DNA of 64,000 nt. Source: Fluviicola chungangensis. GTDB taxonomy: Bacteria; Bacteroidota; Bacteroidia; Flavobacteriales_D; Crocinitomicaceae. The translations under genes and the position numbers were made by a program. The first letter of the stretch is position 1; every line of letters begins with the position of its first letter. The stretch spans positions 62,001 through 126,000 of the forward strand of contig NZ_VLPL01000002.1 of the NCBI RefSeq assembly GCF_007558725.1, in the 5' to 3' direction. Below are positions 32,601 to 54,750 of this stretch, piece after piece. The notes under the pieces are model-generated. The model saw only the letters and a program-made list of their open reading frames with translations, searched no databases and was not told the origin of the DNA.

Positions 32601-33541
32601 TCATCGCAAAACAATTCGTTGAGTTCGTTGAACAAAATCGCATTCTTCTGGAAAATATCTTTTTTACTGAATGTGATCCGGTAACCATCTTTGGAGTTAT
32701 TTACACTGATCAGCCCATTGTTTACCGTTGCAATGTAAAATTCGTTCATTGATTTTACATATACGTCTGAGAATTCTTCAATTCCGTATTCTTTGCCAAT
32801 AAATTTTAAGAACGGAAACAGTTTCCCCGATTGAGTATCGAACAGCCACAGGCCTTCATTACTTGATAAAATAAAACTGCTTTCGGTAAAGGCTTCCACA
32901 TCTGAGACCAGCCAGGTTTTTTGACTGTTGGGCGGAGTCAGTTGTTTCCATGCTTTCGATTTCAGGTTGTAAACATATACCCCCACATCTTCAAACGAAA
33001 CGACCAATTGTTCCTTCGAAACGAACCGAATGTAATGGATGCGTTTGGAAGGAATTGCTCCCGTTAAAAAGGAGATTTTTTTTGTGGTCCGATCGTATTT
33101 GGCCAATCCATGCGTGGAGGATCCCAGCCAAATATTCCCGTTCTCCTCTTCCGAAATACTTTCAATGGAAAGGTTGTTTTCGTCTGAAGCCAAAAGGGAG
33201 CGGAATGTTTCCTTCCGTGGGTTGTAAACAGAAATTCCATCTGCCGTCCCGAACCACAATTGTCCCGATTGGTCTTTTAATCCGCAATGAATGTAGGAAC
33301 TTGCCAACCCCGGCGTGTCATCGGAAGTAAATACTTCAAATTGCTGTCCGTCAAAACGGTTCAAGCCGTCTTGCGTTCCGAGCCATAGGGTGCCGGCTTC
33401 ATCCTGCACAATAGTCGTCACCGAACTCTGCGAGAGTCCATCGTTAATAGAAAAATTTCTAAAACGATACGAGACTTGACTTACCGCGCTAGTAGTAGCA
33501 AACGCAACAACAGCTCCAATTCCTAGTAATCGAACGAGCAT
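29633..33541 (-). CDS. Propeller-type receptor with class III adenylate cyclase and HD domain
   Basis: 1302 residues. Signal peptide (1-22); two-component-regulator-type beta-propeller repeats (about 25-660, e.g. TLWLGTQDGLNRFD, GNIWLGSSTHGLAKYD); Y_Y_Y-like domain (about 715-785); one transmembrane helix (about 790-810); coiled coil (815-875); class III nucleotidyl cyclase (about 895-1075); HD domain (about 1125-1240). Cyclase residues are complete: metal-binding D904 and D948, adenine-specifying K944 and D1017 (YDIWG), and N1024 and R1028. The HD domain keeps H1133, HD at 1165-1166 and a later D1226. It probably binds a ligand in the periplasm and makes cAMP. The propeller/Y_Y_Y front end usually precedes histidine kinases, so the cyclase-HD output is unusual. 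Confidence 0.92.
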   Translation of the reverse strand: MLVRLLGIGAVVAFATTSAVSQVSYRFRNFSINDGLSQSSVTTIVQDEAGTLWLGTQDGLNRFDGQQFEVFTSDDTPGLASSYIHCGLKDQSGQLWFGTADGISVYNPRKETFRSLLASDENNLSIESISEEENGNIWLGSSTHGLAKYDRTTKKISFLTGAIPSKRIHYIRFVSKEQLVVSFEDVGVYVYNLKSKAWKQLTPPNSQKTWLVSDVEAFTESSFILSSNEGLWLFDTQSGKLFPFLKFIGKEYGIEEFSDVYVKSMNEFYIATVNNGLISVNNSKDGYRITFSKKDIFQKNAILFNELNELFCDENGTIWIGTLRGLSGFNPKNDSFFGVGPASNLSQGLPSESVWGFEESDDYSKVYIATDFAISELDRKTGTFKHYYISKSEDFNENSIVSIHLISDRHFLIGANDGLYELKIRDGQGIFKKINYKGISNPSGFQRVYRITPYKQSQFFIATKGGVLLYDLKTGEFKPFVYDPKKPKTTIGAGVCRVAYKGLNDTYYFATGVGGINILTHDKKGKEQIVPYPMNKSILKASRDVISSIYQEDETTLWLGSSGSGLLKLNLKTGDVVAYTRKQGLPNNFVYGILPDKKGNLWLSTNKGLCRFNTAQEHCTNYSEVNGLMSNEFNTGAYLLSGTGEMYFGGIEGYNFFNPENLQELKEKVYVNFLKFRFDDQWLKPGDKNAPFKESFFYQSEIKLGYDERSFTIRFVPTDLINRDLLQFKYELEGLDEGSVYLGSSSEIHFTSLTPGSYVLKVYVKRIDGNWVQATSSMNIEIAAPFWWKWWFWVLVLIVLTLVIIIFIRSRINLARRDQVRLEMKIVERTKEIRAQNMKIESQKKVIEEEKTKVEEQKRLLQIEKDKTETLLRNIIPESTAEELKTKGRASARAYKTVSVLFTDFVGFTKIAEGLKPTDLVNKLDVYFRKFDEIIVKNNLEKIKTIGDAYMCAGGVPVRNNTNPIDAVLAALQIQDYMNTLKENALKTGEEYWELRLGINTGEVTAGVIGSERLAYDIWGATVNQAQRMEMMGEPGRVTISGSTFKLIEPYFECTYRGKVKTKSKGLIEMFTVERIKPELSRNGEGLYPNDRFQQIVNLHLYSSINYYKAERHIIKVLEKGLSPMLHYHSIEHTKDVVRAVERYALLEGVTDEGLFLLKSAATYHDAGFVESYEKNEPIGARMAEEILPKYGYSDQHIAQIKELIFVTQIPHQPKNKLEQIICDADLDYLGRDDFHEISDRLRRELREHGKIQGDRQWDLMQVAFLNMHKYFTPTAIASRQTKKMQNLKEVEERLARNEYKD

Positions 33542-33602
33542 ACGTATTTTATTTCGTTTATTTCAACGAATAATTCACTGAAAAAGTTTCACTCTCAGGG
33601 CC

Positions 33603-34115
33603 TTATGCTTTCTGACCGACACCTCCTGCTTTGGCAGCAGTTTCCATATCACGGTCAAACAAATAAAGACCTCCTTTATCTCCGCCAATCAAACGCAATT
33701 TATCCAGAATACTGCGCCCCAACGCTTCTTCTTCCAATTGCTCGGAAACATACCATTGCATGAAATTGTGTGTGGAATAATCCTTTTCCTGCAGGCAAAC
33801 GTCAACAACGTTGTTGATGCTTTCAGAAACTCCCACTTCATGCTCAAGTAACAATTCAAAAACACGCTCCAGGGAATCGTATTCTCTTGGAGGTTCCGGA
33901 ATTGAAGGAACAACAGCTACACCTCCGCGCTCATTCACAAATTTGATCAGCTTCAACATGTGGAACCGCTCTTCATCTGAATGGGAGTACATAAATTTGG
34001 CTGTACCGTTCAACCCTTTTGTTTCAGCCCAGGAAGCCATCGCAAGGTAATATTGAGAGGAAGAAGATTCTTTTTGAATTTGATCATTTAATGCCGCTTC
34101 AATTCGCTTATTCAT
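33603..34115 (-). CDS. ftnA: Ferritin
   Basis: 170 residues of a four-helix non-haem ferritin that oxidises Fe(II) and stores iron. The ferroxidase ligands are present: E16-region (QIQKESSSSQYYLAMASW), the pair in SHSDEERFHML (E50-R-F-H53) and the later LLLEHEVGVSE and EQLEEEALGRSIL segments. Length and order match bacterial FtnA rather than bacterioferritin (no haem Met) or Dps. A TAACTTTG -7 element lies upstream, divergent from rnr. Confidence 0.95.
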   Translation of the reverse strand: MNKRIEAALNDQIQKESSSSQYYLAMASWAETKGLNGTAKFMYSHSDEERFHMLKLIKFVNERGGVAVVPSIPEPPREYDSLERVFELLLEHEVGVSESINNVVDVCLQEKDYSTHNFMQWYVSEQLEEEALGRSILDKLRLIGGDKGGLYLFDRDMETAAKAGGVGQKA

Positions 34116-34142
34116 TGTTGTAAATTTTTATTCTGTTTCTAT

Positions 34143-34150
34143 CAAAGTTA
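34143..34150 (-). promoter_or_regulatory. -7 element (TAACTTTG) for the ferritin gene
   Basis: The minus-strand TAACTTTG matches TAnnTTTG 28 bases before the ferritin ATG. A clear -33 TTTG is lacking. Confidence 0.4.
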
Positions 34151-34217
34151 CCATTTTAAGCTTAAAATTGAACATCTTACCTGCAATTAATCGTATTTTT
34201 ACACTACAACGCGAATT

Positions 34218-36374
34218 ATGGGGAAAAAAGGACCAAAAAAAATCAAAGACAAATCGACCAAGAAATTAAAAACCGGTCTGTATCACATCATTCGAAAATT
34301 ATTTGAACAACATCCCGACGCTCTTTTGAACTACAAACAGGTCTGCAGTTTGCTGCATGTTCACGACAGTGAATCCCGTAAATTGGTTGTGGCCCTGCTC
34401 CGTGAATTGGAAACAGAAGGTTTTCTGCGCAAAAGCGGTCATGAAACCTATGCTTATTCCAATATTACCGAAACGATTGAGGGAGAATTGGAGCTGACGC
34501 AGCGTGGTTCCGGATTTGTTACGGTTGGGAAAAACGAGCCGGATATTTTCATTGCCCCGCATAATATCGGTCACGCCATCCACGGAGATATTGTGAAAGT
34601 CACACTCATCAAAAAAAGCGGTACCCGTCCGGAAGGCAAGATCATGGAAGTGGTTTCTCGCGAGCGGACCCAGTTCGTTGGAACGATCCACATGTATGAT
34701 AAACATGCATTTTTAATTCCCGACAATACCAAAACCGGAGTCAAGATCTACATTCCCCTTGAAAAACTCAATAAAGCAAAAAACAAAGATAAAGCACTGG
34801 TAAAAATTACCGTTTGGCCCAAATCTGCGGAGTTTCCTTTCGGGGAAGTGATCCAGACTTTGGGAGGAAATTCGATTCACGATACGGAAATGATCTCGAT
34901 TTTGATCGGGCAGGGAATTCCGATTGAATTTGAAGCGGATGTCATGAACGAAGCGGAGCAAGTGAGTTTGGAACTGGATCCGGTGGAAGTCGCGAAGCGA
35001 CGGGATTTCCGCGATATTCTGACCTTTACCATCGATCCGGTAGATGCAAAAGATTTCGATGATGCGCTATCTATCCGCAAATTGGAAAACGGACATTACG
35101 AGATCGGTGTACACATTGCGGATGTGAGTCAGTATGTGAAATCGGATTCAGCGATGGACAAAGAAGCTTACCGGCGCGGGAATTCCGTTTACCTGGTTGA
35201 CCGCGTCATTCCCATGTTGCCGGAACAGCTTTCCAACATGGTCTGCTCCCTGAGACCGAAAGAAGATAAATTTACCTTTTCGGCCGTTTTTGAATTGGAT
35301 GAAACTGGAAAATTGTACAACGAATGGTTCGGCAAAACCGTGATTCATTCAGACCACCGTTTTGCATACGAAGATGCGCAAGAAATTTTGGAAGGAGCAG
35401 AAGGTCCATACAAGGAAGAATTGCATTTGTTAGATAAAATCGCAAAAATCTATCGAAAAGAACGGTTTAAACAGGGCGCTTTGATGATCAACTCGGAAGA
35501 AATCCGCTTTAAACTGGATGAAAACAAAGAGCCGGTTGATGTCGTTGTGAAGGTTTCAAAAGATGCGCATCAGCTGATCGAAGAGTTCATGCTTTTGGCA
35601 AATAAACGCGTAGCGATGTTTGTTGGAATGCCGCAAAAGGGCAAAGATCCTGTTCCATTTGTTTACCGCGTCCATGACAAGCCCGATCCGGAAAAAATCG
35701 CATTATTCAGTTTATTTTTAGATAAGTTCGGACATGCTTTGGAATTTACAAGTCCGGAAAAGGCAGCACAGAGTATCAACAAATTATTGAACGATATCCG
35801 TTTGAAGAACGAGTACAGTATCATTCAGCAAATGGCAATCCGGAGCATGGCGAAGGCAACGTATGATACGGACAACATCGGCCACTACGGTTTGGCTTTC
35901 CAGTACTACACCCACTTTACTTCACCTATTCGCCGGTATGCCGATTTGATGGTTCACCGCATTTTATTGGAGTGCCTGGAGCACAGGCCGCATAAATACA
36001 ACTCGGCACTGGAAGATATCTGCAAACGCATTTCACGCACGGAGCGCAAAGCAACGGAAGCGGAGCGCGAATCCAATAAGTACTTCCAGGTGGTGTTTGT
36101 TCACGACAAGATCGGAGAAGAATTTGACGGAATTGTTTCCGGTTTGGCTGAATTCGGGTTGTTTGTGCGCATGACCGAAAATGCATGTGAAGGAATGGTT
36201 GCACTACAAGAACTTCCCGGCGACCGTTATACCTTCGATGAAAAGACGATGACGATTGTGGGCCAGAAAACCGGGAAAACGTTCCATTTCGGAGATAATG
36301 TCCGGGTGAAGATCTCGGAAGTTCACCCAAAGAAGAGACAAATTGACCTGGAGCTGGTTTCGGTGGCGGAGTGA
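34218..36374 (+). CDS. rnr: Ribonuclease R
   Basis: 718-residue 3'-5' exoribonuclease that degrades structured RNA. Domains: N-terminal winged-helix (about 25-75), two cold-shock OB folds (about 80-220, TQRGSGFVTVGKNEPDIFI), RNB catalytic domain (about 250-590, with DILTFTIDPVDAKDFDDALSI carrying the metal-binding aspartates, and HYGLAFQYYTHFTSPIRRYADL) and C-terminal S1 domain (about 630-712, GEEFDGIVSGLAEFGLFV). It lacks the very long Lys-rich tail of the E. coli enzyme. It is divergent from ferritin. Confidence 0.96.
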   Translation: MGKKGPKKIKDKSTKKLKTGLYHIIRKLFEQHPDALLNYKQVCSLLHVHDSESRKLVVALLRELETEGFLRKSGHETYAYSNITETIEGELELTQRGSGFVTVGKNEPDIFIAPHNIGHAIHGDIVKVTLIKKSGTRPEGKIMEVVSRERTQFVGTIHMYDKHAFLIPDNTKTGVKIYIPLEKLNKAKNKDKALVKITVWPKSAEFPFGEVIQTLGGNSIHDTEMISILIGQGIPIEFEADVMNEAEQVSLELDPVEVAKRRDFRDILTFTIDPVDAKDFDDALSIRKLENGHYEIGVHIADVSQYVKSDSAMDKEAYRRGNSVYLVDRVIPMLPEQLSNMVCSLRPKEDKFTFSAVFELDETGKLYNEWFGKTVIHSDHRFAYEDAQEILEGAEGPYKEELHLLDKIAKIYRKERFKQGALMINSEEIRFKLDENKEPVDVVVKVSKDAHQLIEEFMLLANKRVAMFVGMPQKGKDPVPFVYRVHDKPDPEKIALFSLFLDKFGHALEFTSPEKAAQSINKLLNDIRLKNEYSIIQQMAIRSMAKATYDTDNIGHYGLAFQYYTHFTSPIRRYADLMVHRILLECLEHRPHKYNSALEDICKRISRTERKATEAERESNKYFQVVFVHDKIGEEFDGIVSGLAEFGLFVRMTENACEGMVALQELPGDRYTFDEKTMTIVGQKTGKTFHFGDNVRVKISEVHPKKRQIDLELVSVAE

Positions 36375-36433
36375 TTAACCACGAAGCTCACAAAAACCAC
36401 GAGGCTTTCGTATTTTCTCTTGATTTAGTTCAT

Positions 36434-36940
36434 TTACCTGATCTCCCGGTAAAACAGGACTTTTTGGTCCAGGAACCACAACTTTCCTCCTTCGCTTTCG
36501 AAGAACAAGTCCGGGTGACCGTGATAATCCGCATCGGAATTTTCCAATTCAGTCGAAAGCTCCTTGCTCAACCAGGGAAAATCAAATGTTTTTTTCCGGT
36601 AATTTGGTAATGCATAATCCGTTTTTTTACACAGATCAAGCATTTTTTTAAAGGTCCGCGAATCAAAATAAAGAACCGCCTGCAAATAATCGTCTTTTGG
36701 TTCATCAGAACCACCTCCATTTATTGTCTCAATAAAGGTGTGATGAAACTCCACTTTTTCGGGCCGGAATTTTTCCAGGTTGATCAGCTTTCCCAACTTG
36801 TTTACACTGGTGGATTCGTCTGCTTTGACAACATAAGAGGTCGGAGTGCCTTCTTCCGATGATCCCTCCAAATCACAAGAACCCAAACTGAATAAAATGA
36901 GTAGACTGTAAATGACGATTATTTTTCGGTTGACTTTCAT
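36434..36940 (-). CDS. Hypothetical lipoprotein
   Basis: 168 residues. The signal peptide ends in the lipobox SLGSC (about residue 22), followed by DLEGSSEEG. The mature domain is charged (SYVVKADESTSVNKLGKLIN, FHHTFIETINGGGSDEPKDDYL) and ends in a beta-rich FESEGGKLWFLDQKVLFYRE segment. I do not recognise a family. It is the downstream member of a minus-strand lipoprotein pair with 37003-37671, 62 bases apart. It converges on rnr. Confidence 0.65.
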   Translation of the reverse strand: MKVNRKIIVIYSLLILFSLGSCDLEGSSEEGTPTSYVVKADESTSVNKLGKLINLEKFRPEKVEFHHTFIETINGGGSDEPKDDYLQAVLYFDSRTFKKMLDLCKKTDYALPNYRKKTFDFPWLSKELSTELENSDADYHGHPDLFFESEGGKLWFLDQKVLFYREIR

Positions 36941-37002
36941 ATTTGTTCTTTATTGTAAATTAATTTCATCCAAATTAGTTCAATGTGTTGATTTTTCAAA
37001 CA

Positions 37003-37671
37003 CTATTTTTTCCAGGATTTTTGTTTTTTCAGCCGGAAAGAACCTGTTTGGAATACCGCATCTTCTTTAATCGTGTAAAGAGAATCACCGGAAATAACGA
37101 TGTCAAAATCCACCTCATCACCCTGCACAAAGTCATAAGCACTTCCAAAGCTGGCTTTGATGGTGAGTAATTCTCCGGTAAGCGGATGTGTGTGGTCCGT
37201 TAGTATGGTTGCCGGTGTGTATTCATTGAATAATTGATCGTCAAAAGCAAAGGTAAGCTTCGATTTATCGATTCGCTTCAGTTTCATCAGATCATCATTC
37301 CCGTATTGCACCAGGATCGATTTTTTATCAAGTGCTGCCGACGGATCAACAAAGATCGTCAGTGAATCAAGTGTGGGTGCTTTGCAGATATATTGTCCGA
37401 ATGTTAGCTTGCAATTCACGTGATAAGTGGAATCATTGATTGCTTTAATCGTTCCGGAATGTTCGCCGTAAATGGAATTTCCTGCCGTTTCATAGGTAAA
37501 AAGCACCATGTTATCAGGGGTAATTTTCAGGCAGCACAAATAGCCGCCACTGTTGGAGTAGCCTTTGTAGAGTTGTTCGGTTTTGAACGGGTTCTTTTCC
37601 GATTTCACTGACTTCGAGTCTGAACAGGCTGCAATCGAAAGCAGCAGCACTGGAATAATTAAACGTACCAT
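37003..37671 (-). CDS. Hypothetical lipoprotein
   Basis: 222 residues. The signal peptide ends in lipobox SIAAC (about residue 16) followed by SDSKSVKSEKN. The mature part is beta-rich (YLCCLKITPDNMVLFTYETAGNS, TYHVNCKLTFGQYICKAPTLDS), with a double Cys at SGGYLCCLK that may form disulfides. No family is recognised. It lies upstream of the lipoprotein at 36434 and downstream of the GNAT gene at 37712 (40 bases), on the same strand. Envelope location is inferred. Confidence 0.65.
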   Translation of the reverse strand: MVRLIIPVLLLSIAACSDSKSVKSEKNPFKTEQLYKGYSNSGGYLCCLKITPDNMVLFTYETAGNSIYGEHSGTIKAINDSTYHVNCKLTFGQYICKAPTLDSLTIFVDPSAALDKKSILVQYGNDDLMKLKRIDKSKLTFAFDDQLFNEYTPATILTDHTHPLTGELLTIKASFGSAYDFVQGDEVDFDIVISGDSLYTIKEDAVFQTGSFRLKKQKSWKK

Positions 37672-37711
37672 ATGTATTTTGTTTTTCCGGCGAAGCCGAA
37701 AAATTTGATTT

Positions 37712-38119
37712 TTAAGGTCTAAATAACTCCATCAACTTCTCCGGGCTCTTCAATTCCGTAAATCCAAATTGTCGATACAATCCGTGTGCATCAGAAGTAG
37801 CCAAACGCCACACTTTGACGTTTTTCAATGGTTCACATTCCAGGATGTATTCCATGAGTAATTTGGAATAACCCAAGCCCCGGTATTTTTCGTCAATGAA
37901 TACATCCATGAGATAAGCAAATTGTGCGTAATCCGTTACCACCCGCGCATAACCGATTTGCTGATTATCAAAGAACAGACCAAAATTCAGGGAATTATCA
38001 ATGCATGTCCGCATCATTTCTTTTGTGCGGTCTTTTGCCCAATACGATTGAGAAATAAAGCCGGTAATGTATTCCAAATCCAGTTTTTCTTTGTCAGAAG
38101 TAATGATTAGATTCTCCAT
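37712..38119 (-). CDS. GNAT family N-acetyltransferase
   Basis: 135 residues. Motif A for acetyl-CoA binding is MDVFIDEKYRGLGYSKLLMEYIL, a variant of the Q/RxxGxG/A signature. The end, WRLATSDAHGLYRQFGFTEL, is the usual motif B (AxxLYxxxGF). It is a small cytoplasmic acetyltransferase of the type often annotated as GNAT close to rnr in Flavobacteriia. The substrate is unknown. Confidence 0.9.
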   Translation of the reverse strand: MENLIITSDKEKLDLEYITGFISQSYWAKDRTKEMMRTCIDNSLNFGLFFDNQQIGYARVVTDYAQFAYLMDVFIDEKYRGLGYSKLLMEYILECEPLKNVKVWRLATSDAHGLYRQFGFTELKSPEKLMELFRP

Positions 38120-38173
38120 AGCTTAAAAATAAGGAATCTATAAAAACCCTACATTTTAATGGTATACTAAAAA

Positions 38174-39808
38174 TCAATCTAAAACCTGAACCGGCTTGGT
38201 AACCACCGTTCCATCTTTGTAAATCACCGATAAATAATAAACTCCTGCTTGCAGATGGATATTTTCAACTTCAAATCCCGTATCTGTTTTTACCTCGTTG
38301 ATTTCGATCTCCTTTCCCGAAAGATCTCTCAGGTTAAATTCCTTCACCATTTCATTTGGTACATATATGGAGAAAGAACCGTTCGTTGGATTGGGGAAAA
38401 CCGAAAACGCATTTTTGTTGTAGGCATCTATTCCCAAATGGTCTGTTAAATAATTCCCTGCGGCAAAAATATTCGGTAACGGGCCTATTTTTTCAGTAAC
38501 CGGAAACAATACTCCGGCAACCTGTGGTTTTCCGGTACTTACCAACAAATCCCTGATTTCATCTCTTGTTAGCGTATTTCCCGTAAAATTCCGGTATAGT
38601 GACTGCAAAAGGGTGACTGCACCTACAACAATCGGGGAAGCTCCGGAAGTTCCTCCGAAATCATCCGAGTAGAATTTGTTTGGTCCGTCAGCCCCATACG
38701 CAGAACCGTAACCTGTTGTTACAACGCCTTCTCCATTCCCTTGTAAATCAATCCGGCTACCGTAATTGGAAAACCATAAGCGCGAACGCGGGGCATCGTT
38801 AATCCCAACAGCTCCTGCCCCGACCATAATGGCTTCCGACCAATTTTCTTGCAAAAAGGGATAATGTCCGTTATTGTCCATGCTAAAAATCGGGTCATCC
38901 AAATTTTGATTTCCGTTTCCAGCTGCTTCCACTACGATTAGTCCGTTCCCGGAGATCAGCTGGATGGCATCATAAAATGGTTCATACCATTCTACCGGTA
39001 CATAGTCCTGATTCTGATTCGGACCTCCAATTTGCTGTTCGATCAAAACCACATCTCCCGGATCCAATTCACTTAAGGTATTGATCAATGCCTCTTCCAG
39101 GTAGTAAGTCTGATTAATATAAGCACCCGAAAAATACAATTGACTTTGATAGGCAATACCGGTTGTCCCTATTCCATCGTTCAGGGAAGCAATTTCACCC
39201 AGTACTGCGGTTCCGTGATTCGGTCCATAACCCGGATCCTCCGGTTGTGGTCCCACAATAATCACTGGAGGTAAATCTGCATGATCCGAATTAAATATAT
39301 ATTCCACATCACACACTTTCACACCGGCACCATAAATGGAATAGGCATTCCAAAATTCCTGAACATGCATTCCCGGATCCTGGTCAAACAGGTAAAGTTG
39401 TGCCGGCTCAAGATTCGGCACGGCAGGTGTGCTTAATTTCGGAGGTATACTGACATAGTTGAGTGCGTATGTATTTTCCTGGATTGCTTTCCTCGCAGAT
39501 TCAAGTGTGACACCCGGTTTTACGTGAAATTCAAAGATCGTATTCGGGTCCGAAAGGTTTTTTTTCAGGTTCTGTTTTGCCTGGAGGTAATACCTTTGAA
39601 GCTGTTCCGAAGGAATATTGTAAAATGGTTCCCAATAGCCAAATTGGCTCAGATCCGGTAATTTTCCAAATTCAGAAACCAATTTTCCGTCCCGGACATA
39701 TACTGCGGTTCCGTCCTGCAATTTCACGTGCAGAATTCTGTCAGCATTATTTTGAGCTACTGTCAGGCCAATTGAAAAAGATAAAACGGTGAGTAGACAA
39801 AACTTCAT
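38174..39808 (-). CDS. Secreted subtilisin-like (S8) serine protease with T9SS sorting domain
   Basis: 544 residues from ATG 39808; the frame reaches a GTG at 39814. A signal peptide (about 1-19) is followed by an N-terminal propeptide-like region (about 25-125) and an S8 domain. Catalytic residues, numbered from the ATG: D167 in VKVCDVEY (in place of the usual D-T/S-G), H198 in GPNHGTAVLGEIAS, N298 in VVEAAGNGNQN, and S388 in FGGTSGASPIVVGA. The triad is thus complete. A T9SS type A domain ends the protein (about 470-544, VFPNPTNGSFSIYVP...GVYYLSVIYKDG). It is probably an exported protease. It has no linked regulators other than the LytTR gene upstream. Confidence 0.9.
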   Translation of the reverse strand: MKFCLLTVLSFSIGLTVAQNNADRILHVKLQDGTAVYVRDGKLVSEFGKLPDLSQFGYWEPFYNIPSEQLQRYYLQAKQNLKKNLSDPNTIFEFHVKPGVTLESARKAIQENTYALNYVSIPPKLSTPAVPNLEPAQLYLFDQDPGMHVQEFWNAYSIYGAGVKVCDVEYIFNSDHADLPPVIIVGPQPEDPGYGPNHGTAVLGEIASLNDGIGTTGIAYQSQLYFSGAYINQTYYLEEALINTLSELDPGDVVLIEQQIGGPNQNQDYVPVEWYEPFYDAIQLISGNGLIVVEAAGNGNQNLDDPIFSMDNNGHYPFLQENWSEAIMVGAGAVGINDAPRSRLWFSNYGSRIDLQGNGEGVVTTGYGSAYGADGPNKFYSDDFGGTSGASPIVVGAVTLLQSLYRNFTGNTLTRDEIRDLLVSTGKPQVAGVLFPVTEKIGPLPNIFAAGNYLTDHLGIDAYNKNAFSVFPNPTNGSFSIYVPNEMVKEFNLRDLSGKEIEINEVKTDTGFEVENIHLQAGVYYLSVIYKDGTVVTKPVQVLD

Positions 39809-39923
39809 AAGCACGTAATTTTTACCAATGCTAATGAATTAATTCGATACCATTCCAAACAAAAATGTATAGACAGCAATCTGGTGAGGGAAAGGTACTT
39901 AAGAAATAGTCTATTGCTTGTTC

Positions 39924-40685
39924 TTAAAGCAATTTTATCCGGTTTGTCAATTCATCCCTGTATGAACCGCCGATAGGAATGAGTTTACGGTCATTTTCCA
40001 ATTGCAGATTGGGAAAATCAATGGATGCTATTTTATCCAAACGGACAATAAACGAACGGTGAACACGGATAAACTGGTCTGTACCCAATTTTGTTTCGAT
40101 ATCCTTCATCGTGGAATGGATGGTGTATCGCGTTTCATTGGTGTTGATAACTACGTAATCTTTCAGCGCTTCAATGAAATAAATATCGTTCATATTCAAT
40201 TTCACCAATTTGCTGTTGGACTTTACAAAAATGAATTCATTGAGAGAATCTTTTTCCTTGTTTTCCACCAGGGAGTATAGCATGTCGCGTTCGCGTTCCA
40301 CTTCCTGCTCCTTCTTGTGTTTATAAAGTGCCATTTCAATCGATGTGTGTAAATCGATTTCTTTGAAAGGTTTTAAAATATAACCGTAAGGTTCGGTAAC
40401 TTTTGCTTTTGATAACGTTGCTTCATCCGCATAAGCGGTTAAATAAATCACCGGAATGGAATACTGATTACGTACAATTTCTGCTGTTTCAATTCCATTC
40501 ATTTCCCCCTTCAACATGATGTCCATCAGGACGATGTCCGGCTGATTTGCTTCCAATAATTCAAGTGCTTTTTCACCCGATGGAGCTGCGCCAACAACAT
40601 GATAACCAAGCTTTTTCAAACTGGATTGGATATCCTTCGAAACAATGAATTCATCTTCTACAACTAATACATTAGCCTTCGTCAT
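39924..40685 (-). CDS. LytTR-family response regulator
   Basis: 253 residues. The N-terminal receiver domain (about 5-120) has VLVVEDEFIVSKDI, phosphoacceptor D55 in IVLMDIML, T/A switch at YLTAYADEATLSK and K in YGYILKPF. A helical linker follows (about 125-155), then a C-terminal LytTR DNA-binding domain (about 155-250, DIYFIEALKDYVVINTNETRYTIHSTMKDIETKL...FIRVHRSFIVRLDKI). No histidine kinase is adjacent, so the partner is encoded elsewhere. A TACTTTTG -7 element lies upstream. It flanks the candidate origin region. Confidence 0.93.
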   Translation of the reverse strand: MTKANVLVVEDEFIVSKDIQSSLKKLGYHVVGAAPSGEKALELLEANQPDIVLMDIMLKGEMNGIETAEIVRNQYSIPVIYLTAYADEATLSKAKVTEPYGYILKPFKEIDLHTSIEMALYKHKKEQEVERERDMLYSLVENKEKDSLNEFIFVKSNSKLVKLNMNDIYFIEALKDYVVINTNETRYTIHSTMKDIETKLGTDQFIRVHRSFIVRLDKIASIDFPNLQLENDRKLIPIGGSYRDELTNRIKLL

Positions 40686-40704
40686 TCTTTACAGCTTTGG
40701 GTTC

Positions 40705-40712
40705 AAAAGTAA
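40705..40712 (-). promoter_or_regulatory. -7 element (TACTTTTG) for the LytTR gene
   Basis: The minus-strand TACTTTTG fits TAnnTTTG, about 20 bases before the ATG at 40685. No clear -33 TTTG is seen. Confidence 0.35.
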
Positions 40713-41301
40713 TTAATTTTGAACGTTAATTACCATCTGTTTTAATTATTTAGCAGACGCTTCATTTTCATTCGTCTATTCGAATATAAACTTTAACTAT
40801 GAATTGTGCAAATTAGTCTTCAAAATGAGCGAAAACAAAATAATATAGAATAAAAAGATTTTAAATAAAGAAATCTATTATATCTATTAGGGGTGTTAAT
40901 TCGTGTAAAACTTTCAATGGAAAGATTCGTTTTTTTAACTTATCAGTTGTTTCGATGGATTTATTGACAATGCGATTGGTTATTTTGAGGTTCTGTCACA
41001 AGGTTTTACGCAGATATGAACAAATCGGGTCAAATTGTTCATGTGGATAAAATAGTTTCTTTTCACGGTGTTAATATGTGTTTAACATGGTGATAAAAGA
41101 GCGATAATTTGATCAAACTTTTAGATGCTCAATTCAAAAACTTGTACATATGATCAAATAGTTTGAATTTCCTAGAAATAGTTATTGAATCTTTCCAACA
41201 GATATTGACAATTTGAATGTGAATCCTGTGTAAAACTCCTTTTTGTACTACCAACAAAATCAGTACTTCCGGAGCTGGTATTTTTTCTTATTGTTAATTG
41301 A

Positions 41302-41332
41302 TTGTTCCATTTGTTGATAAGCCTTAACTTTG
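41302..41332 (+). promoter_or_regulatory. Promoter of rpiB
   Basis: TTG at 41302-41304, a 20-base spacer and TAACTTTG at 41325-41332, close to the Bacteroidetes -33/-7 consensus. The ATG at 41350 is 17 bases after the -7 box. Confidence 0.55.
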
Positions 41333-41349
41333 ACGAAACTTTCAGTATT

Positions 41350-41790
41350 ATGTCACAAATCATTCCAATCGGAGCAGATCATGCAGGATTTCAATTGAAG
41401 TCAGAAGTTATTAAACATTTAGAATCACTTGGTTACCAGGTGAAGGATTACGGATGTTACAGTGAAGAAAGCATTGATTATGCAGATTTTGGTCACCCGG
41501 TAGCGGATCATGTGGAAGCAAATGAAGGTTCGAAAGGAATTGTGATCTGTGGAAGCGGGAACGGTATTAATATGACTGTTAATAAACACCAGGGAATCCG
41601 TGGAGCTCTTTGCTGGAAAAAAGAAATAGCACAATTGGCTCGTGAACACAACGACGCAAATATTTTGACTTTACCTGCGCGATTTGTTTCCGTAGAAGAA
41701 GCACTTGAAATGGTGGATATTTTCTGGAATACTGCATTTGAAGGTGGAAGACACCAGAAGCGTATTGATAAAATTCCCATGTGCAAGTAA
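41350..41790 (+). CDS. rpiB: Ribose-5-phosphate isomerase B
   Basis: 146 residues. It interconverts ribose 5-phosphate and ribulose 5-phosphate in the pentose phosphate pathway. RpiB motifs: IPIGADHAGFQLKSEVIKHLESLGYQVKDYGCYS, GIVICGSGNGINMTVNKHQGIRGALCW (with the catalytic Cys in the ICGSGxG loop), and EHNDANILTLPARFVS. The frame runs back to 41302, but ATG 41350 (MSQIIPIGADHAG) is the standard N-terminus and matches the promoter. It is next to the candidate origin. Confidence 0.96.
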   Translation: MSQIIPIGADHAGFQLKSEVIKHLESLGYQVKDYGCYSEESIDYADFGHPVADHVEANEGSKGIVICGSGNGINMTVNKHQGIRGALCWKKEIAQLAREHNDANILTLPARFVSVEEALEMVDIFWNTAFEGGRHQKRIDKIPMCK

Positions 41791-41803
41791 GGTAAAATTG
41801 AAA

Positions 41804-41865
41804 ATTGAGAATTGAAAAGTCATTGACTCTCTTTTTCAATTCTCAATGATACATTCTCAATGATA
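41804..41865. repeat. 15-bp perfect inverted repeat and 13-base direct repeat between rpiB and the M28 gene
   Basis: The arms ATTGAGAATTGAAAA (41804-41818) and TTTTCAATTCTCAAT (41833-41847) are exact reverse complements around a 14-base loop. ATTCTCAATGATA occurs at 41839-41851 and again at 41853-41865. There is no U-tail after it, so it is an unusual terminator at best. Confidence 0.55.
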
Positions 41866-41868
41866 ATT

Positions 41869-43329
41869 ATGAAAGGAATCACCAGTCTATTATTCTTCAG
41901 TGCCGTATGTGTTTGTTTTTCCCAGCAAATCGATGCAGCCAAAAAGTACAGTACCTATATTAATGAATCGGACCTGAAAAAGAACCTGACCATTTTATCT
42001 TCGGATAGTTATCTGGGACGCGAAACGGGGAAAGAAGGTCAGAAGATGACAGCTGAATTTCTGAGTGCTTATTTTCAAAAACTGGGTTGTTCTTTTGCTC
42101 CGGGAATGTCGGGTTATGAACAAAGCTTTGATGTGATTGAAAGTACACCGGGAGGAACTATGTCTTTGAATGATCAATCGTTTCGTTTCAAAACGGACTT
42201 TATTTATTATGGATGTAAGTCAAAAACGACCTTGGATAAGGTGCCGGTTTACAGCGTCGAACAATTACCGAAGATTGAAGAAAAGCCATGTTATGTTATT
42301 TATGTCATGAAGGGCATGGAAGTTCGAAAAGAAGTTTCTGTTTTGAAGAAGCAGTTACCAAAGAACGTCAAGGGGATCATCCTGGTTTCAGAAAAATACG
42401 GAACACTTTACGAATACATGGAGCATTACGTTACTACAAAAACCATGTACCTGGCAGATGAAAAGAAGAAAGATGAATTTCCGATCCTGTTTGTGAAGGA
42501 CTCGGCCATGCTTTCTTTGAAGAATAAGTCAACCAATTATATCTTTGGAAAAGGGAAATTCAAAGAAACAGAACACCCGAAGCCCTTGTTTGTATTGAGT
42601 GGGCAATTGAACACGCAGGAGGAAAGACTGACAAGCTCCAATGTATTGGCATATATTGAAGGAAGCGATCCGGTATTGTCAAAAGAAGTCGTGGTGATTA
42701 CGGCACATTATGATCACATTGGTGTAGATCACGGAGTTGTATACAATGGAGCGGATGATGACGGAACCGGAACAGTTGCGTTGCTGGAACTGGCAGAAGC
42801 GTTTATGGAAGCAAAGAAGCAAGGTGAAGGACCGAAGCGTTCTATTTTGATCATGCCCGTTTCCGGTGAGGAAAAAGGACTGCTTGGTTCGGATTACTAC
42901 TCTTCGCATCCGGTTATTCCTTTGGAAAATACGGTTGCTGATTTGAATATCGATATGATCGGCCGAAACGATATCGGCCACGAAAAAGATACCAACTACA
43001 TCTATATCATCGGTTCAAATATGTTGAGTGACGATTTGCATAATGCCAATGAACGTGCGAATACAAAGTATACCCAATTGAAACTGGATTATAAATTCAA
43101 TAGCTTGTCTGACCCGAACCAATTTTATTACCGTTCTGACCATTACAACTTTGCAAAGCACGATATTCCGGTTATTTTTTACTTCAGCGGAGTACACGAA
43201 GATTACCATCAGCCGACAGATGATGTGGAAAAGATCATCTTCCCGAAAGTAGAAAAAGTAGCACGACTGGTTTTCTTCGTTGCCTGGGAAATAGCGGATG
43301 CTTCGAAACGGCTTACTTTGAACCGGTAA
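41869..43329 (+). CDS. Secreted M28 family zinc peptidase
   Basis: About 486 residues from ATG 41869 (the frame starts at ATG 41860). A signal peptide (MKGITSLLFFSAVCVCFSQ) is followed by a PA-like region and the M28 catalytic domain: VITAHYDHIG (metal H and D), NGADDDGTGTVALLELAEAF (metal D), MPVSGEEKGLLGSDYY (catalytic EE), IDMIGRND and a final H in FSGVHEDYHQPTDDVEKI. Family members are aminopeptidases or carboxypeptidases and need two metal ions; the exact specificity is unclear. The 3' end overlaps the convergent TlpA-like gene by 17 bases. Confidence 0.93.
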   Translation: MKGITSLLFFSAVCVCFSQQIDAAKKYSTYINESDLKKNLTILSSDSYLGRETGKEGQKMTAEFLSAYFQKLGCSFAPGMSGYEQSFDVIESTPGGTMSLNDQSFRFKTDFIYYGCKSKTTLDKVPVYSVEQLPKIEEKPCYVIYVMKGMEVRKEVSVLKKQLPKNVKGIILVSEKYGTLYEYMEHYVTTKTMYLADEKKKDEFPILFVKDSAMLSLKNKSTNYIFGKGKFKETEHPKPLFVLSGQLNTQEERLTSSNVLAYIEGSDPVLSKEVVVITAHYDHIGVDHGVVYNGADDDGTGTVALLELAEAFMEAKKQGEGPKRSILIMPVSGEEKGLLGSDYYSSHPVIPLENTVADLNIDMIGRNDIGHEKDTNYIYIIGSNMLSDDLHNANERANTKYTQLKLDYKFNSLSDPNQFYYRSDHYNFAKHDIPVIFYFSGVHEDYHQPTDDVEKIIFPKVEKVARLVFFVAWEIADASKRLTLNR

Positions 43330-44542
43330 TTCCCAGAAGGGATTCTATCAACGCATTGGTTTTATTAACATATTCCGCGTATACTTCTCCGGTTCCCGGG
43401 CCGTTGAACCCGGTGTGAATGCGTTTTACTTCTCCGTCACGTCCGATGTAAATGGATGTTGGAAAGGAAATTACTTCATTCAACATTTTAAACTGTTCGG
43501 AAGCAATTTCTTTGGAAGCCTTTCCACCTACCAGGAAAGTGAATTCCAGGTTTTTACGTTGTTTCAATGTGAGTATTTTCTTCGCCTGTTCTTCAAATGA
43601 ATCTGCTGCTTCATACCCAATGGAGATGATTTCCAATCCTTTTGAGTGGTACTTATCATACAATTCTTTATAGTAGTTTGTTTCGTCCATACAGTTCGGA
43701 CACCAGGTTCCCATAATTTGTATGATAACAACCTTCCCCCTGGTTTCCGGGTTTGGAAATGAATAATCTGTGCCGCTAAGCGTTTTAAGGTTGAAATTGA
43801 ATGCAGTGTTATCCTTTTTAAGAGTAGTAATGGAATCCGGATCCCGCAATTCATAATTCGGATTGTAAGTAGCAACAAAATCCGTCGCATAATGTTTTCC
43901 ACTGTAAAAATAGCCCTGGATGTAATGTTCCTTCAAGGTACCACTTAGTAAAAAGGCGTGTGAACCATCAAAAGCAGAAAGGTAAAACTTGGATCCTTCA
44001 ATGGTTCCTTCCAAGAAGCGATAATCGCCGGTTTCTGTTCTGAAAGTTCCGGTAAGGTGATTTTGGTTTTGAGCAATGATCCCCAACGCGCTTTCCTCAT
44101 CGGTGGTTTCGGGAGAAAAGTGTGTTTCCCATTTTCCATTGAGATCTCCCGCTGGAAACTCCTTTTTCCGTGTTTTCTGATTGAAATTAGCGAAAAAAGG
44201 AATTTTGTAATTGGTACCTTTATTATAGTTGAACCAATAACCCCTGATTTCTTTCTTCTTATCGGTAATAAACCGCAACTCGGAATCAAAGCTTGGAAAG
44301 GGTAAAATAATGGTATCACCTTTTTTAATACCGTTTGTTAATTCGATCCGTTCTTCTGCATTGTGAACTACAAGGAGTATTCTTTTCTGTTTTTTTTCGA
44401 CAGTCAAATGAACAGGTAATTGCGTGGTTTCGTTCAATTGAAGATAAGCAGAATAAGCTCCTGGCAGAAGCGGGATCTTTTGAGAATAGAGAGTTGTTGC
44501 TGAAATAAGCATCAGTAACAAGGAAGCAATACTTCTTTTCAT
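43313..44542 (-). CDS. Secreted TlpA-like disulfide oxidoreductase with N-terminal beta-rich domain
   Basis: 409 residues. Signal peptide (1-20), a beta-rich N-terminal region of unknown function (about 21-240) and a thioredoxin-like domain (about 245-400) with the redox motif W280-C281-P-N-C284 (IIQIMGTWCPNCMDETNYYKELYDKY) and a cis-proline region near VISFPTSIYIGRDG. This two-part architecture is common in Bacteroidetes periplasmic thioredoxin-like proteins. It could reduce or isomerise disulfides in envelope proteins. The start is ATG 44542. The gene overlaps the M28 gene tail by 17 bases. Confidence 0.9.
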   Translation of the reverse strand: MKRSIASLLLMLISATTLYSQKIPLLPGAYSAYLQLNETTQLPVHLTVEKKQKRILLVVHNAEERIELTNGIKKGDTIILPFPSFDSELRFITDKKKEIRGYWFNYNKGTNYKIPFFANFNQKTRKKEFPAGDLNGKWETHFSPETTDEESALGIIAQNQNHLTGTFRTETGDYRFLEGTIEGSKFYLSAFDGSHAFLLSGTLKEHYIQGYFYSGKHYATDFVATYNPNYELRDPDSITTLKKDNTAFNFNLKTLSGTDYSFPNPETRGKVVIIQIMGTWCPNCMDETNYYKELYDKYHSKGLEIISIGYEAADSFEEQAKKILTLKQRKNLEFTFLVGGKASKEIASEQFKMLNEVISFPTSIYIGRDGEVKRIHTGFNGPGTGEVYAEYVNKTNALIESLLGITGSK

Positions 44543-51500: not shown

Positions 51501-51864
51501 GGAGCAAATGCGCAACGAAATGAATAAAGAGGGAAAAGGGAAAGGAAACCAACTGAACCCTTTGATTAAGGAACTGGAGGAGCAGGAGAAACAATTGATC
51601 AATAAACAATTCTCTCCGGAGATGATCCGCCGTCAGCAAGATATCTTAACGCGCTTACTGGAAAGTGAGAAAGCCTTGAAAGAAAGAGGTTTTGAAGAAA
51701 AAAGAGAATCTACTTCCGGAAAAAACACGGATTATGGTAACCTTATTCGATTTGATGAGTATAAGCGTAACAAGCTTGGACAAGTTGAGTTGTTGCGTGC
51801 AGTTGATCCTTTGTTGACAAAGTATTATAAAGACAAAGCAGGTAAATACTTCAATCGGTTCTAG
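48529..51864 (+). CDS. DUF4175 family membrane protein with large coiled-coil region
   Basis: 1111 residues. Three transmembrane helices (about 25-46, 53-72 and 155-176) are followed by a long periplasmic domain. A beta-rich part spans roughly 180-490, and a very long Glu/Lys/Gln/Leu heptad-like coiled coil covers about 500-780. The C-terminal region is Gln/Gly/Pro-rich (about 900-1000, PGNGSCDNPGGAGQKPSGGQM), then a final coiled coil (EQMRNEMNKEGKGKGNQ). DUF4175 proteins of this kind are typical of Bacteroidetes and often lie next to ybeY and mnmG. The function is not established. The gene is followed by an RsbW-like ATPase (26 bases) and ybeY, so an operon is likely. Confidence 0.88.
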   Translation: MSAFDRLIEQIDAFIRKYYKSEILKGVLIVVGFLLASWLTVSVLEYFGRFPSSVRFILLILFLGMNGYLLVRYFALPIMRLYSFGKRINRTQAARIIGSFFPNVSDRLLNTLQLNEIVNEDDRSFELIRASVSQKSNELLAVKFEEAVRYEESKRYLKYVIPIILVFGTIAVFAPGWITKGSSNVVHFSQAQEAPFDFNLVNKKDKLREGSSYNVEVDITGLYVPEHVFLVSNRGRYKMNKVRKNRLAFPIDNLKSDLVFHFESEGYESKVFQVQVLGNASLGKVVATLHYPKYLKKRDERLLNIADLDLPEGTRVDWHVEARNVSWFKVFGKGLSKQFEGSAGNFESVYKDDSYVNFVLKNKYLNLLDTSNIQIHVIKDAYPAILVSESVDSVKASIRLFEGLISDDYGLSSLYFMYTIKKKNGSELKRKMLVDTYTSTSDKFSFAVDFSRDNIDVEDKISYHFQVFDNDGVNGSKSTSSQNFVYELPTLTNLNEKRDEVQKELKNALKDVFKKTEQFQKDVNKLQKSLMNKSKSDFKNMEQVQSLKQQQQSLQEELQSIKDKLDASNEEKNQLSEQDEELLKQQELIEELLKEVMDDELKKLLDELEKLMEKNDQQQMKNETDKLDASSDEMKKQLDRTMEMLKRLQVNEKIDDLEKELDQLAEEQEKLEKELKEEKISEKDGSKKQDELNKKFDDLKKDMQELQKLNEELERPMPMDSFDQEQQEISDEMSGAKSKLDQGKKGKAGENQKKAAEKMKELSDQLNNQQEAANKKQNEEDMSLIRLLLENLMSLSFDQEYVMNRFGKVKDIDPYYNKLGRKQRSIIDDNKLIEDSLMALAKRQTKIAPFIDKELKDIRSNFGLITNEIGEHNRRGMQQHQQYVMTSYNNLALMLNESLQSMQQQAQQQKPGNGSCDNPGGAGQKPSGGQMSSDDMKEMLKKQLEQMKKGPNPGGKQPGDKPGQGNQGMPGLGNKEVAKMAAQQTAIRQRLEQMRNEMNKEGKGKGNQLNPLIKELEEQEKQLINKQFSPEMIRRQQDILTRLLESEKALKERGFEEKRESTSGKNTDYGNLIRFDEYKRNKLGQVELLRAVDPLLTKYYKDKAGKYFNRF

Positions 51865-51890
51865 CATTCGTAGAACATTAAATTAGAAGA

Positions 51891-52304: not shown

Positions 52305-52741
52305 TGGTAGATGTTTTTTTTGAAGATATAGAAGAAGTTCCGGGTGTAAATCCGGAATTTTTGTTTGCATGGTATTCGCAGGTGTGTGAGAACGAATCGA
52401 AGAATTTGGGGGAAATCTCAGTTGTTTTTTGTTCGGATGAACATTTGCTTGAGATGAACAAGGAATACTTGCAACACGATTATTATACGGATATCATTAC
52501 GTTCGACTATACACAGGGCGATTTGGTGTCGGGCGATTTGTTTATTAGTGTGGATCGGGTTGAAGACAATGCTGATGAGTTTGATGTGCCTTTTCAGGAT
52601 GAATTACATCGAGTGTGTGTGCACGGTTTGTTGCATTTGTGTGGGTATAAGGATAAATCATCCGACGATGAAAGGTTAATGAGGTTGAAGGAAAACGAAA
52701 TGTTGGAACTCCGAAGGTTTCACGTGAAACATTTAAGGTGA
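52304..52741 (+). CDS. ybeY: Endoribonuclease YbeY
   Basis: 145 residues. YbeY is a metal-dependent single-strand endoribonuclease in 16S rRNA maturation and ribosome quality control. The motif DELHRVCVHGLLHLCGYKDKSSDDE matches the H-G-x-L-H-L-x-G-Y core with two histidines. The usual third His (YDH) is replaced by K-D-K, a form I believe is common in this phylum. The C-terminus ends RRFHVKHLR: F-H-V-K-H is the translation of an embedded parS-like site (52716-52731). Overlaps the RsbW-like gene by one base. Confidence 0.9.
   Translation: MVDVFFEDIEEVPGVNPEFLFAWYSQVCENESKNLGEISVVFCSDEHLLEMNKEYLQHDYYTDIITFDYTQGDLVSGDLFISVDRVEDNADEFDVPFQDELHRVCVHGLLHLCGYKDKSSDDERLMRLKENEMLELRRFHVKHLR
52716..52731. 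other. parS-like ParB-binding site 1
   Basis: GGTTTCACGTGAAACA, one mismatch (first base) to TGTTNCACGTGAAACA. It lies inside the end of ybeY and encodes part of FHVKH. Confidence 0.7.
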
Positions 52742-52793
52742 ACGAGGAGCTTGGTGCCCTCTGTTTGTAAGGATGAAATGTTAATGTTACGTA

Positions 52794-52809
52794 AGTTTCA
52801 CGTGGAACA
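52794..52809. other. parS-like ParB-binding site 2
   Basis: AGTTTCACGTGGAACA (reverse complement TGTTCCACGTGAAACT), one mismatch to the consensus. It is between ybeY and mnmG. Confidence 0.7.
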
Positions 52810-52839
52810 TTTGAAGGCTTACCGGGATGATAGTAATTT

Positions 52840-52855
52840 TGTTCCACGTGAAACA
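52840..52855. other. parS-like ParB-binding site 3, perfect match
   Basis: TGTTCCACGTGAAACA, an exact match to the parS consensus TGTTNCACGTGAAACA. It ends nine bases before the mnmG ATG (52865). Confidence 0.85.
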
Positions 52856-52864
52856 TGAAATAAT

Positions 52865-54736
52865 ATGTTGAAAAATTATGATGTCATTGTAGTGGGTGGC
52901 GGACATGCTGGTTGCGAGGCTGCGAATGCAGCTGCAAAACTGGGTAGCTCGGTGTTGTTGATTACAATGAATATGAATACCATTGCCCAAATGAGTTGCA
53001 ATCCTGCGATGGGCGGTGTGGCAAAAGGACAAATTGTACGTGAGATTGATGCGCTTGGTGGTGGGTCCGGAATTGTTTCCGATTTGTCGGCCATTCAATT
53101 TCGCATGCTGAATCGATCAAAAGGTCCTGCAATGTGGTCGCCACGAACTCAAAATGACCGGATGAAATTTGCTGAAGAGTGGCGTTTGCTTTTGGAACGA
53201 AACCCGAATGTTGATTTTTGGCAAGACATGTGCAATGGGTTGATTGTTGAAAATGGGTCCATTATCGGTGTTCGAACATCGATGGGAATTCCTGTATACG
53301 GAAAGGCGGTTGTTTTAACAAATGGTACGTTCCTGAATGGTTTGATCCACTTGGGTGAAAAGCAATTTGGCGGGGGCAGAATCGGTGAGAAGGGCGCAAC
53401 TGGAATTACTGAGGATTTGGTTGCACTCGGCTTTGAGTCCGGAAGGATGAAGACCGGAACGCCTCCACGGGTGGATGGAAGGTCATTGGATTATTCTAAG
53501 ATGGAATTGCAAGATGGAGATGAAAACCCAAGCAAGTTTTCTTATGGTAATACGGAAGCGTTAAAAGTTCAGCGTGCATGTCACATTACTTATACCTCTA
53601 CCCTCACCCATGAATTGTTACGGGAAGGTTTTGATCGTTCACCGATGTTCAATGGGGCTATCAAAAGTAGTGGGCCGAGATATTGTCCGAGTATCGAGGA
53701 TAAGATTAATCGATTTGCAGATCGTGATAGACACCAGATTTTCGTTGAACCGGAAGGATGGAATACTGTTGAGATCTATGTCAACGGTTTTTCTACCAGT
53801 TTACCTGAGGATGTCCAGTTAAAGGCTTTGCGTTCTATTCCCGGATTTGAACAAGCAAAGATGTTTCGTCCGGGTTATGCAATTGAGTATGATTACTTTC
53901 CTCCCACACAACTAAAACATACGTTGGAAACAAAATTGATTGATGGGCTCTATTTTGCAGGGCAAATCAACGGGACAACCGGATACGAGGAGGCGGCTTG
54001 CCAGGGATTAATGGCTGGAATAAATGCTGCCTTAAAGGTGCAAGAGAAAGACCCGTTTATTTTGTCAAGAAGTGAAGCTTATATCGGGGTGTTGATTGAT
54101 GATTTGATTACGAAAGGAACTCAGGAGCCATACCGGATGTTTACTTCACGTGCTGAGTATCGTATTTTGTTGCGCCAGGACAATGCAGATGTTCGTTTGA
54201 CACCTGTTGCATTTGAACTCGGTTTGCAGGATCAGGATGCAATGGACAGGGTAAACAGAAAAGTGAATGCCGCGAAAGAACTGATAGGTGCTTTGCGTAA
54301 AGAGGGTGTTAGCCCGGAAGTGGCAAATCCGGTTTTGGATTTGGTTGGAAGCTCTCCGCTTTCTCAGCAGGTCAAATTGGCTTCTGTACTTACCCGACCG
54401 CATGTCACGATGGAACATGTGTTGGAAATGAGTCAGAGTGTGCGTGAGTTGGCTGATAGGTTACACGTGGAACATGAGGATGCGGTGGAACAAGCTGAAA
54501 TCCTTCTCAAGTATGAGGGCTATATTGCGCGTGAGGAAGAAGTAGCGCTAAAGCTATCCAGGTTAGAGGAGGTCTCTATTCCTGCCGGAACAAATTATTC
54601 GCTGTTAAAATCCTTATCTACGGAAGCAAAGGAAAAATTAAGTAAGATTAAGCCTGTAACGATTGGTCAGGCATCAAGAGTTAGTGGGGTTTCCCCTAGC
54701 GATATTTCAGTTTTATTAATTCATTTAGGAAGGTAG
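52865..54736 (+). CDS. mnmG: tRNA uridine-5-carboxymethylaminomethyl modification enzyme MnmG (GidA)
   Basis: 623 residues. With MnmE it installs the 5-carboxymethylaminomethyl group on wobble uridine of several tRNAs, using FAD and NADH. The N-terminal Rossmann motif is [22 protein letters not shown]. Other family blocks: [66 protein letters not shown] and [18 protein letters not shown]. Length is normal. gidA is often found close to replication origins. Two parS-like sites overlap it or precede it, one within the C-terminal coding part (54459-54474). Confidence 0.97.
54459..54474. other. parS-like ParB-binding site 4
   Basis: GGTTACACGTGGAACA (reverse complement TGTTCCACGTGTAACC), inside mnmG (encoding part of DRLHVEHED). 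It has two mismatches to TGTTNCACGTGAAACA and keeps the core CACGTG. Confidence 0.6.
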
Positions 54737-54750
54737 TTTCACGTGGAACA
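54735..54750. other. parS-like ParB-binding site 5
   Basis: AGTTTCACGTGGAACA (reverse complement TGTTCCACGTGAAACT) spans the mnmG stop and the GTG start of the methyltransferase. One mismatch to the consensus. Confidence 0.7.

Follow-up and report, generated by a model that had tools for sequence, protein, structure and literature searches.

A candidate chromosomal replication origin upstream of rpiB in Fluviicola chungangensis

Where does replication of the Fluviicola chungangensis chromosome begin, and how might its origin be opened? We analysed a stretch of 64,000 bases, here called the window (G000:C12:62001-126000), of a 4.27-Mb draft assembly in 19 contigs. In this window an AT-rich gap of 664 bases, without a gene and flanked by rpiB, had been proposed as the origin. 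These properties hold: the gap has exact bounds at 40686 and 41349, is 71% AT, contains no gene and is directly followed by the rpiB start codon. We consider it, with a probability of about 0.93, to be the single chromosomal replication origin, a candidate oriC; the switch in GC skew, a conserved core, the weak DNA and the distance to parS support the original prediction. Features are collected in Table 1, and positions are those of the window unless a genome or contig is named.

Table 1. Features of the candidate origin and its surroundings, in window coordinates
Feature	Position	Strand	Basis or conservation
Response regulator gene, receiver and LytTR domains, left neighbour of the gap	39924..40685	-	ORF; PF00072, PF04397
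Candidate oriC, intergenic	40686..41349		skew minimum of C12:1-266000; local minima of G003 and G013 fall in the homologous gap
Probable promoter of the response-regulator gene	40770..40812	-	conserved block, presumed promoter
Candidate DNA unwinding element, AT-rich	40810..40889		least stable DNA of the 64-kb window
TA-rich trinucleotide tract CTA-TTA-TAT-CTA-TTA, DnaA-trio-like	40875..40889	+	sequence; genus members have comparable tracts built of other NTA units
Conserved origin core, 27-base pattern	40885..40911	-	single match per genome in 14/14 genus genomes, upstream of rpiB
GC cluster, separating the trinucleotide tract from the DnaA box	40890..40893		sequence
DnaA box TTTTACACG, 1 mismatch, in core, spacer of 11 to tract	40902..40910	-	at most 1 mismatch in 9/14 genus genomes
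DnaA box TTATTGACA, 1 mismatch; TTATTCACA in two genus members	40961..40969	+	at most 1 mismatch in 13/14 genus genomes
DnaA box TTATCCACA, exact	41042..41050	-	at most 1 mismatch in 12/14 genus genomes
DnaA box-like TTAAACACA, 1 mismatch	41077..41085	-	10/14 genus genomes
DnaA box TTTTACACA, exact to TTWTNCACA	41227..41235	-	at most 1 mismatch in 14/14 genus genomes
Probable rpiB promoter, contains box-like 41312-41320	41288..41332	+	conserved block ending TAACTTTG, presumed promoter
rpiB, ribose-5-phosphate isomerase B, right neighbour of the gap	41350..41790 (ATG 41350)	+	TIGR01120 above its cut-off
parS site, 1 mismatch	52716..52731	+	
parS site, 1 mismatch	52794..52809	+	
parS site, exact	52840..52855	+	
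mnmG (gidA), between parS sites	52865..54736	+	TIGR00136 above its cut-off
parS site, 1 mismatch, inside mnmG	54459..54474	+	
parS site, 1 mismatch, end of mnmG	54735..54750	+	

GC skew around the gap

The skew profile of the genome itself covers contig C12 alone, one of the 19. Over the contiguous stretch C12:1-266000, the cumulative G-C curve reaches its minimum at window position 40797, inside the gap, and a two-segment change-point analysis in 500-base blocks placed the switch at 41001, with a 95% interval of 33501-42001 (33001-42001 with 1000-base blocks and 30001-44001 with 2000-base blocks). Nine additional 20-kb samples, reaching up to C12:626000, had skews between -0.015 and +0.097, and seven of the nine were positive. 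The strongest positive skew within the window (+0.20 to +0.28, against at most +0.145 elsewhere) occupies 50001-56000, which covers mnmG and the gene for a coiled-coil-like protein of 1111 amino acids.

Two complete congeners show the switch at the same place. In G003, which has 4,606,342 bases, the profile of 3.94-4.30 Mb reaches its minimum at 4108324, within the gap that precedes rpiB (4108850). Between 0 and 1.745 Mb, 8 of 9 skew samples are positive; between 1.84 and 4.10 Mb, 19 of 20 are negative; and between 4.12 and 4.39 Mb, 8 of 10 are again positive, with -0.0006 in each of the remaining two. The opposite switch falls at 1.75-1.84 Mb in the coarse pattern of 23 samples of 20 kb, and the antipode of rpiB is at 1.806 Mb; the arms being split in this way, the terminus lies opposite the rpiB gap. 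In G013 (4,633,577 bases), the local minimum at 1757843 is within the gap starting at 1757298, one arm being negative in 11 of 11 samples and the other positive in 8 of 9, with the far switch at 3.92-4.07 Mb (antipode 4.074 Mb).

Other genomes give a less exact placement. G017, a complete genome of the same family, has its local minimum at 2741365, past rpiB and 1.5 kb outside the gap; excluding the rpiB sample, its arms are negative in 10 of 10 and positive in 9 of 9 samples, and its far switch is at 0.56-0.80 Mb (antipode 0.560 Mb). The switch of G012, another complete relative, is weak, with a local minimum at 4351690, 3 kb to the left of the gap, and a wide change-point interval of 4313001-4403501. 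G026 belongs to another family; rpiB lies at base 886 of its complete record, with 885 bases ahead of it. Skew is -0.12 just before the record start and +0.04 just after it. Samples of G026 are positive in 9 of 9 cases from 0 to 1.62 Mb, and the arm from 1.8 Mb on is noisy (7 of 11 negative, 4 of 11 positive). A skew minimum at another locus had been named as the observation that would speak against an origin here; the minima fall in the gap, or in G017 and G012 at the distances given, and no rival minimum was found in the stretches profiled, which comprise C12 and the sampled relatives.

A conserved core, DnaA boxes and weak DNA in the gap

Conserved blocks were derived from an alignment of the gap in 14 genus genomes, own included, in which the best conserved inner 20 bases start at 40894. 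The 27-base core pattern occurs, with at most two mismatches, once per genome in all 14, its start preceding the rpiB match by 463-469 bases, and its reversed-pattern control had no match in 25 genomes. As the pattern was derived from the same genus genomes, the news lies in its uniqueness and in one match outside the genus: G014 has a single, exact match at C28:9371-9397, and its rpiB is on C2. The core is thus not directly upstream of rpiB in G014, although the two contigs could adjoin and leave them kilobases apart, and this separation argues against a regulatory element of rpiB. It seems that either the origin or rpiB has moved in the genus of G014. The other 10 genomes of the 25-genome search had no match to the 27-base core.

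Looser patterns were searched more widely, rpiB being present in 37 of 40 genomes, own included. With a 28-letter form of the core and up to four mismatches, 6 of 11 loci from other genera of the family (L016, L017, which is the locus of G020, L020, L021, L024 and L025) had a match 470-546 bases ahead of rpiB, whereas the remaining five and all five loci of other families had none. The test is loose at four mismatches because three genus loci have a second such match. Given the absence at the other-family loci, the case beyond the family consists of the skew of one genome and the literature. A 16-letter family-wide core gave 18 matches in 16 of 40 genomes and its reversed control 12 matches in 11 genomes; presence alone thus says little, and the pattern was dropped as a family-wide marker. 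Eight of these 18 matches lie within 500 bases upstream of rpiB, six of the eight outside the genus; seven others are on contigs without rpiB and three are in G065, a genome outside the rpiB search.

The gap contains eight boxes with at most one mismatch to TTWTNCACA. The two exact boxes of the original prediction were both found, on the minus strand, and its statement that all boxes share one orientation is limited to these two, since two of the eight are on the plus strand and six on the minus strand. The minus boxes at 40805 and 41312 fall within the probable promoters, and the plus box at 41004 is conserved in just 1 of 14 genus genomes. Over the whole window exact boxes are at chance level (9 observed, 9.4 expected). 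A box-density scan, proposed earlier as a check, places the gap above background to a modest degree and is no proof by itself. Shuffles of the gap averaged 3.4 boxes and 0.18 exact boxes, the observed two exact boxes being reached in 4 of 500 shuffles. Of 10,561 overlapping 664-base background windows taken from the contig outside the gap, 3 reach eight boxes, and none of the 468 with an AT content of at least 0.64 does so (maximum 7). The enrichment is real, though modest; as 13 of 500 shuffles also reach eight boxes and exact TTATCCACA is not above its reversed control genome-wide (38 and 46, respectively), box density was dropped, as weak, from the proofs of an origin. Elsewhere, G020 has 14 boxes with at most one mismatch within 522 bases before rpiB, and the gaps of G026, G033 and G034, which are without the core, have 2, 5 and 5.

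A stability scan with nearest-neighbour energies placed the starts of the weakest stretches of the whole window, at lengths of 30, 50 and 80 bases, at 40837, 40839 and 40810, so that an unstable AT-rich element stands beside the boxes. Two further blocks are conserved among the 14 genus genomes, 41125-41153 (TGCTCAATTCAAAA..TTGTACATATG) and 41192-41215 (AGATATTGACAAT), and DnaA boxes alone do not explain them. A search for an RNA gene in the gap gave no Rfam match up to E = 1 in 40000-42000.

Could the gap be nothing more than two promoters and the regulatory DNA of the divergent response-regulator and rpiB genes, with the origin elsewhere in 33.5-42 kb? The conserved blocks at both its ends do resemble promoters, as judged by the Bacteroidota consensus, the change-point interval is 8.5 kb wide and box density is just modestly above chance. 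Against this, the mid-gap conserved blocks at 40894, 41132 and 41192 lie away from both promoters, the weakest DNA of the window sits in the gap, the same gap holds the minima of G003 and G013, and G014 carries its exact core and its rpiB on separate contigs (though, across contig ends, the two may still lie only some kilobases apart). We regard a purely regulatory role as improbable and retain the gap as the candidate origin.

Placement of parS, dnaA and parB

The original prediction had placed the candidate origin near a cluster of parS sites, and five sites indeed start 11.4 kb from the gap. Among the matches listed, the genome has six parS-like sites with at most one mismatch (reversed control, 1), five of which lie at window 52716-54750, 11.4-13.4 kb from the gap. 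The arrangement recurs in G003, where, among the matches listed, seven sites were found (control, 0) and six lie at 4120294-4122391, at the near-identical distance of 11.4-13.5 kb. In G012 the side is reversed, with four of five listed sites 7.4-9.4 kb from the gap. A cluster of parS near the origin and a parB gene in the genome (G000:C1:316073-316612) are both as a ParABS system would have them.

An origin at the mnmG/parS cluster itself (52.7-54.8 kb), to which the gap would be incidental, could draw on the clustering of parS around mnmG, on the fact that gidA adjoins oriC in some bacteria, on the positive skew, which is strongest within the window at 50-56 kb, and on the local minimum of G012, which is intermediate between the gap (3.0 kb away) and parS (4.4 kb away). 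The change-point interval of the genome itself, however, stops at 42.0 kb, or at 44.0 kb in blocks of 2000 bases, and that of G003 stops at 4110001 (4116001), before the parS cluster at 4120294, which leaves such an origin highly improbable. That the skew switch marks the boundary of a recent inversion has a negligible probability: inversions are generally known to cause local switches, but the genome itself, G003 and G013 have this one at the same gene boundary, G017 and G012 have it nearby, and G003 has the opposite switch at the antipode.

The gap thus remains our preferred origin, and it is not of the classical kind that adjoins dnaA. As had been expected for this phylum, dnaA is distant: the genome carries it at G000:C1:704479-705873, on a contig other than that of the gap, and in G003, G012, G013 and G017 (positions 1352929, 2465321, 64 and 150) it lies 0.74-0.83 of the way from origin to antipode, so that in these four family genomes it should be copied late. 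The fraction is 0.23 in G026. The complete records of G013 and G017 begin at dnaA, far from the origin; the origin as placed here would be the correct zero point for maps of the genus, coverage-based growth-rate estimates and skew checks of assemblies.

In the four complete family genomes parB lies nearly opposite rpiB, though parS adjoins the origin. Its fraction of the way to the antipode is 0.98 in G003 (1763554), 0.93 in G012 (1922029), 1.00 in G013 (4081200) and 0.89 in G017 (809796), and 0.55 in G026. In G068 it lies at about 0.81 of the half chromosome, from a rounded length, and its placement in G086, G141 and G037, assemblies of 2 to 5 contigs, is alike as judged by eye.

A possible opening mechanism and its counterparts among known origins

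From the arrangement of these elements we propose that DnaA, encoded far off, would bind the boxes of the gap, most of which, on the minus strand, point to its left end. A DnaA oligomer starting from the box within the core may then extend across the GC cluster, reach the TA-rich trinucleotide tract and open the weak AT-rich stretch at 40810-40889, where helicase would be loaded and two forks would start. For the side and the way of unwinding we put the chances at about even.

On the minus strand, the core runs from box TTTTACACG (40910-40902) through AATTAACA, CCCC and TAATAGATATAATAG into AT-rich DNA. The B. subtilis-type BUS offers a comparison. Its search rule, as given in the available text, takes at least three consecutive trios with a middle A, no more than 16 bases from a box with at most two mismatches to TTATCCACA; the spacer peaks at 10-13, and 3'-GAT-5' stands nearest the box (PMC8287927). 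The core resembles what the available parts of two papers describe in its one-mismatch box, its spacer of 11 (within the published peak), the GC cluster, the trinucleotide tract and the AT-rich DNA, and its first tract unit reads 3'-GAT-5' (PMC8287927, PMC6669920). Unlike the BUS, for which the published rule is three, the tract of the window has only two consecutive middle-A units before a break, and no run of at least three 3'-NAN-5' trios was found beside the core box; the box itself, with one mismatch to TTWTNCACA, has three to TTATCCACA, the standard of the published program. The trio rule holds at the core of 1 of 14 genus loci (G004) and of 3 of 11 loci from other genera of the family (G021, G017 and G023). 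It is plausible that the core of the window works like a BUS; membership is not claimed. Four DnaA proteins of the order read KDHATVLHA where DHTT was sought. In the main texts of the two BUS papers (PMC8287927, PMC6669920) no word starting with 'bacteroid' occurs, and that of Ori-Finder 2022 has neither 'Bacteroidetes' nor 'Flavobacteri'; this concerns main texts, with supplements and figures outside its scope, and is no claim that the phylum was omitted.

Applied without an anchor to the 900 bases upstream of rpiB (two regions being shorter), the published rule found hits in 22 of 30 regions on the plus strand and 29 of 30 on the minus strand; satisfied in nearly every region, it is a poor discriminator by itself and was dropped as a stand-alone test. 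A narrower scan, with CTA or TTA as first unit, at least four of five NTA units and two G/C before them, gave seven matches in 946 kb of five genomes, four of which are the homologous site. Its two matches on the own contig (266 kb) include one at 40910; the site was also found in G003, G013 and G017, the last with two extra matches, and G012 had none. With five of five NTA units demanded, the same 946 kb yielded no match. Across 80 Bacteroidota rpiB loci the narrower scan matched upstream in six and downstream in one. Five of the six upstream matches are on the minus strand and precede rpiB by 417-440 bases; three of these five come from already-used assemblies of the own genus.

A wider reading, which we offer tentatively and think unlikely as a whole, is that the Fluviicola family has a variant unwinding module at a movable origin, usually beside rpiB, with dnaA and parB in the opposite half of the chromosome and copied late. 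The module would comprise a DnaA box with a degenerate second box, a GC cluster and a TA-step tract. From its second unit on, this tract would mostly consist of 3'-[T/C]AT-5' units, and it could equally be read as an inverted array of canonical 3'-GAT-5' trios. The conserved core offers a short, testable target for learning how Bacteroidota open their origins.

As for location, the E. coli-type oriC lies beside gidA/mnmG according to the available text of PMC10225481; here mnmG is about 11.5 kb off and not adjacent, and the parS sites are at mnmG while the skew switch is elsewhere. For gut bacteria, the origin was earlier assigned to the skew shift nearest a parS cluster, as stated in the available part of PMC10197239. 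The paper on 'Ca. Fluviicola riflensis' (4.551 Mb) gives a cumulative skew from origin to terminus, the place of the origin being unnamed (PMC5701471). As in Prevotella intermedia, a member of the Bacteroidetes with oriC far from dnaA, and Ornithobacterium hominis, where dnaA is near the terminus and read depth supports the origin, the candidate oriC is at a skew switch with dnaA far away or near the terminus, as far as the available texts describe it (PMC4755523, PMC10353427); these two belong to other families than Fluviicola, and the likeness covers the skew switch and the place of dnaA, not the neighbouring genes.

The closest counterpart is Tenacibaculum, also of the Flavobacteriales, for which the available text reports an Ori-Finder origin adjoining rpiB in 6 of 7 chromosomes and near rpiB in the seventh (PMC9864904). 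The predicted origin beside rpiB is shared. The family differs, however, and that text describes no core motif for Tenacibaculum (PMC9864904); our own core is upstream of rpiB in 0 of 5 other-family loci, with no Tenacibaculum among the named ones. Since rpiB-adjacent origins have been predicted in Tenacibaculum and a distant dnaA is known in the phylum, the gap would be an ordinary origin at a place already predicted for the order; new within the open-licence literature searched, as far as our searches go, are its placement in the genus, the conserved core and the unwinding model.
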